A DNA stretch of 64,000 bases, from the NCBI GenBank assembly GCA_019695115.1, contig JAIBAP010000001.1:62001-126000 (forward strand). The letters are read 5' to 3'. Positions 24,131 to 27,350 of this stretch are shown here, piece by piece. Position 1 is the stretch's first letter, and the number at the start of each line of letters is the position of its first letter. The notes beneath the pieces are model-generated. The model searched no databases, had not been told where the DNA came from, and worked only from the letters and a program-made list of their open reading frames with translations. The stretch is from Caldilineales bacterium (lineage in GTDB: Bacteria; Chloroflexota; Anaerolineae; J102). Both the position numbers and the translations under genes were made by a program.

Positions 24131-24520
24131 ATGCGAACAAACGTAGCGTTCTTCCTTCTTCTCGCCGGCGTCGCCCTCCTCAACGCCTGCGGGGGGCAGC
24201 AGACGCCCTCTCCCTTCGCCCCCGCCGGCCAATCCCAGGGCATGCCGACGCTGCTGTACGTGTTTGCCGACCCCTGACCGGCCTGAGAGCAGATGACGCC
24301 CATCGTGAATGGGCTGGAAGCTGAGTACGGCGAGCGCATCATCTTCGTGAAACTGGATGCCAACACGCCAGAGGGACGTCAGGCGATGCAGGCCTACCAG
24401 CTGCGCGGGCACCCGGCCATCGTGCTGTTCGATTCTGCCGGCGATGTGGCCTGGCAAAGCCTGGGCCTGCAAGGGCGCGAGGAGGTGGCCGCGGCTATCG
24501 CTCAGCTGGTCGAGCCTTGA
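24131..24520 (+). CDS. Thioredoxin-like lipoprotein with two in-frame TGA codons (candidate selenoprotein, UxxU)
   Basis: Read through two TGA codons, this is a continuous 129-residue protein. Residues 1-20 are a lipoprotein signal peptide with lipobox LNAC (Cys20). The strand LLYVFADP is followed by TGA-Pro-Ala-TGA at residues 49-52 (24275-24277 and 24284-24286), then EQMTPIVNGLEAEYGERIIF and VKLDANTPEGRQAMQAYQLR and GHPAIVLFD. That is a complete thioredoxin fold with the cis-Pro in GHPA, and the TGAs stand exactly at the CxxC cysteines. A perfect hairpin 11 nt after the second TGA fits a bacterial SECIS. Known from other families: Sec replaces Cys in redox motifs. Inferred: both TGAs are decoded as Sec. 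The alternative is a pseudogene or two read errors, which would have to hit both Cys codons. Confidence 0.72.
24298..24314 (+). promoter_or_regulatory. Candidate bacterial SECIS hairpin of the thioredoxin-like gene
   Basis: GCCCAT-CGTGA-ATGGGC: a perfect 6 bp stem with a 5 nt loop containing GU, starting 11 nt after the second TGA and 20 nt after the first. Spacing and a GU-bearing loop match the known requirements for SelB recognition; the loop CGUG is shared with the rhodanese hairpin. Confidence 0.6.
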
Positions 24521-24547: not shown

Positions 24548-24820
24548 TCAGTCTCCATTCCAGTCTCCGTCAATGGCCGTGCCATTGGCAACTGCTTGCG
24601 TGCGTATGCGTTCCAGGGTGTCACGAAACCGCAGCATGACTTCGTCACTTGAGAGATGCGCCATCTCAGACGCAAGTCGCTCGGCCTCGTTCCGAATCTC
24701 GGTTGCGCTCGTCTGACGCTCGGCAGTCATGCGTTCGTCCGTCAGACGGCGAACGAATTCCATCACCCGCGCCACGTCTGGTTCGGGCAGAAGCGCTACT
24801 TTAGTTTGCTGTCCTTTCAC
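24548..24820 (-). CDS. Hypothetical protein downstream of the rhodanese
   Basis: 90 aa, GTG start overlapping the rhodanese stop by 4 nt. The sequence is charged and helical (VMEFVRRLTDERMTAERQT, NEAERLASEMAHLSSDEVML) without membrane segment, Cys or recognised domain. The overlap suggests it is translated as the third gene of the Hdr-rhodanese unit. It converges with the thioredoxin-like gene, leaving 27 nt between them. Confidence 0.5.
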   Translation of the reverse strand: MKGQQTKVALLPEPDVARVMEFVRRLTDERMTAERQTSATEIRNEAERLASEMAHLSSDEVMLRFRDTLERIRTQAVANGTAIDGDWNGD

Positions 24821-25343
24821 CCACCCTCCACCGCATACCCCGCCTCCTCCCAAACGGCAAAACCGCCCAACAGCGGCGTCACACGGCTGAAACCTGCCTC
24901 CAACATCATCTGCGCCGCACGGGCGCTGGTCTCTTCGGCCGGTCAGGTGCAGTAGGTGATGATCCACCGCCCCTTGTCCAACTTGCCCAGCTCCTGTTCG
25001 AGCCGGGTCAGGGGGATGGACTCGGCCCCAGCGATGTGGCTGGTCTCATACGAGCCGGCATCGCGCACATCCAGGAACAGGGCGCTGCCGGCGTCGAAGG
25101 CGGCTTTGGCCTCGGCCAGGGTGGCGCGTGGGATATCAGAGACGTTGACCGCAACGGGCGCAGCCGGGGTGGGGGCCAGGGCAGGCGGCGCCAGGGCAGG
25201 CGGCGCCAGGGCAGGCGGCGCCAGGGCAGGCGGCGCCAGGGCAGGCGGCGCCAGAGCCAGGGCGATCACCAAGATCAGCAGGGCCAGGCCCGCGCCCACC
25301 AGGATCAACGGCCAGCGCGAGGGAGAGGGCTTTGGGGAGGGTT

Positions 25344-25347
<4 letters not shown>
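24817..25347 (-). CDS. Membrane-anchored rhodanese with in-frame TGA (candidate selenoprotein, YCxU)
   Basis: A 176-residue protein if TGA at 24945-24943 is read through. It has an N-terminal membrane anchor (about 12-32), five Ala-Pro-Pro-Ala-Leu repeats (about 33-57) as a linker, and a rhodanese domain with ALFLDVRDAGSYETSHIAGA and GRWIITYCT-TGA-PAEETSA, then ARAAQMMLEAGFSRVTPLLG and GFAVWEEAGYAV ending at a normal TGA. Cysteine homologues have YCxCP at this site, so the TGA (residue 135) replaces the second Cys and the sequence after it is clearly rhodanese. The catalytic-loop Cys133 remains. A perfect hairpin follows 16 nt later. The gene start overlaps the Hdr-like gene stop by 4 nt. Sec decoding is inferred. 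Confidence 0.75.
24912..24926 (-). promoter_or_regulatory. Candidate bacterial SECIS hairpin of the rhodanese gene
   Basis: Read on the minus strand: GCGCC-CGTGC-GGCGC, a perfect 5 bp stem with a 5 nt loop containing GU, beginning 16 nt after the TGA. It has the same CGUG loop core as the hairpin in the thioredoxin-like gene. Confidence 0.55.
25176..25250. repeat. Five perfect 15 bp repeats in the rhodanese linker
   Basis: The unit CCAGGGCAGGCGGCG is repeated five times and encodes the Ala-Pro-Pro-Ala-Leu linker between membrane anchor and rhodanese domain. Identical copies make copy-number variation by slippage likely. Confidence 0.95.

Positions 25348-27350
<2,003 letters not shown>

Follow-up and report, generated by a model that had tools for sequence, protein, structure and literature searches.

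A rhodanese gene of a Caldilineales bacterium (Chloroflexota) contains an in-frame TGA that, to judge from comparison across species, is almost certainly decoded as selenocysteine (Sec, U). The gene lies in a 64,000-nucleotide stretch of contig JAIBAP010000001.1 (positions 62,001 to 126,000), the whole of which we call the window, from a source genome of 5.99 Mb in 135 contigs. Taking all lines of evidence together, the product is very probably a membrane-held, extracytoplasmic rhodanese in which a SECIS element directs Sec into a Cys133/Sec135 pair.

Translated with TGA as U, the minus strand of the window reads MKPSPKPSPSRW...ITYCTUPAEETSARAAQ...AVEGG and closes with an ordinary TGA stop. 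The U stands at residue 135, with 41 codons between it and that stop, which bears out the coordinates and counts given in an earlier sequence-only reading of the same DNA. The rhodanese domain (residues 77-168) scores 53.6 bits with PF00581 against a gathering score of 22.2, and its D/R and GG-x-x-W landmarks do not vary in the alignment. In a profile match, Cys133 falls in the active-site loop on the YC of 3tp9, the loop being two residues longer than in 3tp9. It is the Cys of this loop that carries the persulfide in rhodaneses. The single-domain rhodaneses GlpE, PspE and YgaP share the fold and the position of the persulfide Cys (as aligned from 3tp9), and we know of no second Cys or Sec at +2 in them.

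Table 1. Features of the rhodanese locus, in window coordinates.
Feature	Position	Strand	Basis
Thioredoxin-like lipoprotein gene, UPAU active site, two in-frame TGAs	24131..24520	+	PF00085 2.3e-8; two-TGA relatives
TGA codon 49, first U of UPAU	24275..24277	+	coordinates computed
TGA codon 52, second U of UPAU	24284..24286	+	coordinates computed
SECIS-like hairpin GCCCAU-CGUGA-AUGGGC after second UGA of thioredoxin-like gene	24298..24314	+	
Sec-containing rhodanese gene, 176 codons and TGA stop	24817..25347	-	translation; Pfam PF00581 3.3e-14; AlphaFold; PDB rhodanese matches
SECIS-like hairpin GCGCC-CGUGC-GGCGC, starting 19 nt after first base of UGA	24912..24926	-	permutation control; covariation; tree changes
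In-frame TGA, codon 135, U of YCTUP	24943..24945	-	translation; TGA at equivalent column in relatives
Cys133 codon, aligned with catalytic (persulfide-forming) Cys of rhodaneses	24949..24951	-	invariant in alignment; on YC of 3tp9 (profile match)
Tandem repeat of a 15-bp unit (5.3 perfect copies) that codes for the (PALAP)n linker joining anchor and domain	25175..25254	-	
Predicted N-terminal membrane helix, residues 17-31	25255..25299	-	AlphaFold helix; hydrophobic sequence WPLILVGAGLALLILVIALAL
Upstream gene with 4Fe-4S dicluster and two CCG (HdrD/HdrB-like) domains after N-terminal hydrophobic segments	25344..27350	-	

Conservation of the TGA was followed in 20 genomes of the order, which all belong to a single family, and more widely in a 400-genome sample of the phylum together with a scan of species genomes. 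Besides the gene itself, six orthologues (42-64% identity) were found among the 20 family genomes, each with exactly one TGA that the translated loci place at the same YCTU column, and the lower-scoring ordinary rhodaneses in these genomes have no TGA. About 60 distinct Sec sequences (61 tree rows) were recovered from the sampled Chloroflexota, Desulfobacterota, Acidobacteriota and Poribacteria, and after duplicates and partial rows had been dropped the tree set comprised 55 CxU, 6 UxU and 27 CxC rows, the CxU rows coming from Chloroflexota, Desulfobacterota and other phyla and the CxC rows mostly from Acidobacteriota. The 27 non-Sec relatives have CxC where the Sec relatives carry TGA, and with TGA translated as Cys, all 37 rows of the alignment have both C133 and C135. 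The sequence-only reading had proposed that Sec replaces the second Cys of a YCxC motif, and this is supported both by the Cys at the TGA column in homologues, the Acidobacteriota rows included, and by the TGA at this column in the six family genomes and the wider sample. Sequence is conserved on both sides of the TGA across species and the downstream part is kept in all relatives; none was seen to stop at the TGA without conserved downstream sequence, an outcome that the same reading had set against its own proposal. Six relatives (L090, L094, L096, L097, L136 and L138) contain two TGAs in a YU-x-U motif, which would put Sec both at the catalytic Cys position and at +2. In two further relatives the matched rhodanese frame contains one in-frame TAG and no TGA (G240:C30:98290-98607 and G278:C94:192060-192377). 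A search of viral contigs for the rhodanese returned no relative.

The UGA is followed by a hairpin that, with the U of the UGA counted as 0, has a stem of five base pairs (positions 19-23 with 29-33) and a loop at positions 24-28. Two of the pairs, 20-32 and 23-29, join third codon positions, so the protein sequence does not oblige their two sides to agree. Of 63 Sec sequences, 50 have C-G, 10 have T-A and 1 has A-T at pair 20-32, and 60 have C-G and 3 have T-A at pair 23-29; pair 22-30 shows one change, on both sides. In total, 314 of 315 cells are paired in the 63 sequences, compared to 299 on average and 305 at most when synonymous codons were exchanged between sequences 1000 times, and the complete five-pair stem is present in 62 of the 63 (all six UxU rows carry the hairpin) versus 0 of 33 Cys homologues. 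Mapped on the tree, the C-G/T-A switches at the two third-position pairs amount to about 6 and 3 changes, to which no p-value is attached because few branches are strongly supported. The Arg codon in the loop is CGT in 59/63 sequences, as opposed to 11/53 for the remaining Arg codons of these stretches. Measured against synonymous shuffles, the folding energy of the whole region 3' of the TGA was no more distinctive in the Sec sequences than in the Cys control (mean z of -0.47 and -0.44, respectively); the SECIS signal is confined to the specific hairpin and its third-position covariation. By sequence, then, the element has the properties of a structure-conserved SECIS hairpin shortly 3' of the UGA. 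At gathering scores, Rfam reported only tRNAs within the window.

The Sec machinery, whose presence the sequence-only reading had left to be checked, was found in the source genome: selA (552.8 bits), selB (main match 306.7 bits, 334.9 bits when its neighbour in frame is added), selD (353.1 bits) and a tRNA-Sec above the Rfam cut-off whose anticodon is TCA according to ARAGORN, i.e. UCA. The genome thereby contains the selA, selB, selC and selD set by which bacterial selenoprotein genes are judged, and a tRNA-Sec is present in 19 of the 20 family genomes. The selD gene (L019 1501-2436; G000:C3:3875-4810) itself has one in-frame TGA, and SelD of the source genome is probably a selenoprotein too, as is common for SelD.

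These data bear on two other readings of the TGA. That the gene is a rhodanese pseudogene whose TGA arose by nonsense mutation or sequencing error, or that its genuine product is cut short at 134 residues, would fit with standard gene calling, which ends the frame at codon 134, but is extremely improbable given that dozens of divergent sequences share this TGA and stay conserved beyond it and that a covarying hairpin lies inside this post-TGA sequence. Readthrough, or reassignment of TGA to another amino acid such as Trp, has to be considered because an open frame across a TGA cannot by itself name the residue; yet the rhodanese gene also terminates at TGA, relatives without the TGA have Cys rather than Trp at the column, and complete Sec machinery is present along with the SECIS-like hairpin, which makes it very improbable. 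On the basis of the cross-species conservation of the TGA and the downstream domain, and of the covariation, we rejected the pseudogene, error and readthrough readings in favour of Sec. The end that gene calling with table 11 would set at codon 134 also implies that such genes are easily missed in uncultured genomes.

The membrane anchor postulated earlier is likewise predicted by the AlphaFold2 model, in which a single helix (residues 17-31) is followed by a linker of lower confidence and then by a domain modelled with high confidence (pLDDT above 90) whose best PDB matches are rhodaneses. Lysines N-terminal to the helix suggest that the rhodanese domain would face outward. The PALAP repeat of the linker is absent from the family relatives that were read, and its copy number may vary between strains.

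With respect to known selenoproteins, the interpretation of the gene as a Sec rhodanese stands, while the principle is not new, as CxU rhodanese selenoproteins have already been catalogued (PMC9312934; PMC13188914, as NCBIfam NF041203). The latter family (rhodanese_LYCAU, 'rhodanese-related (seleno)protein') resembles the window protein in its rhodanese domain and in a Cys-x-Sec motif at the same place (LYCAU and TYCTU, respectively), whereas the long (PALAP)n linker sets the window copy apart. Although it has the Cys-x-Sec motif (YCTU), the window protein scores 71.2 bits against the NF041203 cut-off of 115 bits, and because of this score we file it in the wider CxU kind and not in NF041203 as curated. 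Three Chloroflexota relatives scored 69-88 bits, also under 115, and four others exceed the cut-off (L130, L132, L138 and L139, of which L138 is UxU). Rhodanese selenoproteins with UxxS or UxxG motifs and TsoB (UxxxxU) have also been described (PMC13188914); they too are bacterial rhodanese-domain selenoproteins but place Sec elsewhere, whereas the window protein keeps the catalytic Cys and has Sec at +2 (CxU), with UxU in some relatives. 'UxU' was not found in the text of PMC9312934 or PMC13188914, our coverage of the relevant literature being incomplete. Within the literature checked, the Chloroflexota clade, its hairpin and the six sampled double-Sec relatives are new.

The adjacent gene is probably recoded as well, as the sequence-only reading had claimed: two in-frame TGAs, in FADPUPAUEQMTP, stand for both thioredoxin cysteines of a protein with a lipoprotein-like start (LLNAC). 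Two-TGA relatives were found in six other family genomes and a few more from the phylum, and further relatives are UxxC. Its hairpin has the CGUG loop in common with that of the rhodanese, and in relatives the loop is kept while both sides of the stem have changed (CCCGU/ACGGG in L179, CCUGUC/GACAGG in L197). Known UxxU selenoproteins include a Prx-like thiol:disulfide oxidoreductase, a MerA-like metal-binding protein and an FmdB-like protein (PMC13188914), which share with the UPAU protein the two Sec of UxxU; the latter differs in being a PF00085 lipoprotein, and the thioredoxin row of that catalogue gives UxxC only. The rhodanese and UxxU genes are close together in the source genome, but the idea that they form a fixed pair is weakened by their separation by about 5.5 kb in G007 and their location on separate contigs in G005 and G010. 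A short open stretch on the minus strand (about 24550..24820), KVALLPEPDVARVMEFVRRLTDERM..., lies between the two Sec genes and is possibly a small separate protein. In three genomes, UxxU genes share short loci with frames that by eye are DsbA-like and contain one TGA in VIYEWSDYTUPYCG (L059 on the minus strand, L061 and L062 on the plus strand), and a strong hairpin follows each.

On the other side, the stop of the upstream Fe-S gene overlaps the rhodanese start as ATGA, and the overlap suggests that the two are translationally coupled. No match to the Fe-S gene was found beside the rhodanese in the same-genus genome, so the window by itself does not define a pathway; an operon function drawn from this neighbour is only partly supported. 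Downstream of the rhodanese, a CCG-domain protein is encoded at more than ten Anaerolineae-type loci, in the loci read with a DUF1573-like lipoprotein (family assigned by eye) between the two, and at other loci a second small rhodanese-like lipoprotein comes after the rhodanese (L106, L112 and L113). The association with redox enzymes of the Fe-S/disulfide type is recurrent, not fixed. Anaerolineae-type loci also encode, ahead of the Sec rhodanese, a short exported peptide whose conserved cysteines read CC...DCLxC (about 2380-2712 in L102, L104 and L110).

How might such a protein work? UGA codon 135 would be decoded as Sec under the control of the hairpin that begins 19 nt downstream, and the one N-terminal helix would hold the rhodanese at the membrane with its domain outside the cytoplasm, as sequence and model indicate. 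Sec135, at +2 from Cys133 in the lengthened loop, would replace the second Cys of a CxC pair. In the mechanism that we consider most likely, Cys133 would take up sulfane sulfur as a persulfide carrier, after which Sec135 could attack the persulfide, yielding a Cys-Sec selenenylsulfide and sulfide, or the pair could pass the sulfur on. A thiol/selenol reductase, for example the thioredoxin-like lipoprotein, might then re-reduce the Cys-Sec pair. We infer every catalytic step of this scheme, and give Sec135 as the resolving residue of the Cys133 persulfide a little less than an even chance. There is also a substantial minority chance that the protein is a selenoprotein whose CxU has a dithiol-like role in reduction or oxidation, or serves in binding or transfer of selenium or metal, and whose function is not sulfur transfer. 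Homologous selenoproteins have been predicted as redox enzymes in general (PMC9312934), some relatives adjoin genes that by eye are P-type ATPase-like (L112 and L115), and UxU in place of CxU in some relatives would also suit metal or redox chemistry. Against a role apart from sulfur, Cys133 sits where the catalytic Cys of the rhodanese fold is found, and neither the D/R nor the GG-x-x-W landmark varies. A broader extension of the persulfide scheme, an extracytoplasmic selenium sulfur relay in which membrane CxU/UxU rhodaneses are reduced by UxxU thioredoxin-like lipoproteins and UxU carries sulfur on Sec, is conceivable though unlikely.

Our analysis adds a large, hairpin-supported Chloroflexota clade to the CxU rhodanese selenoproteins, and a Sec rhodanese paired with a thioredoxin-like lipoprotein that has an unusual UxxU motif and a hairpin with the same loop. 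With CxC, CxU and UxU, nature offers a series on one scaffold that makes the benefit of Sec over Cys directly testable, and if the relay were true, the UxU forms would be sulfurtransferases whose entire redox pair is selenium.
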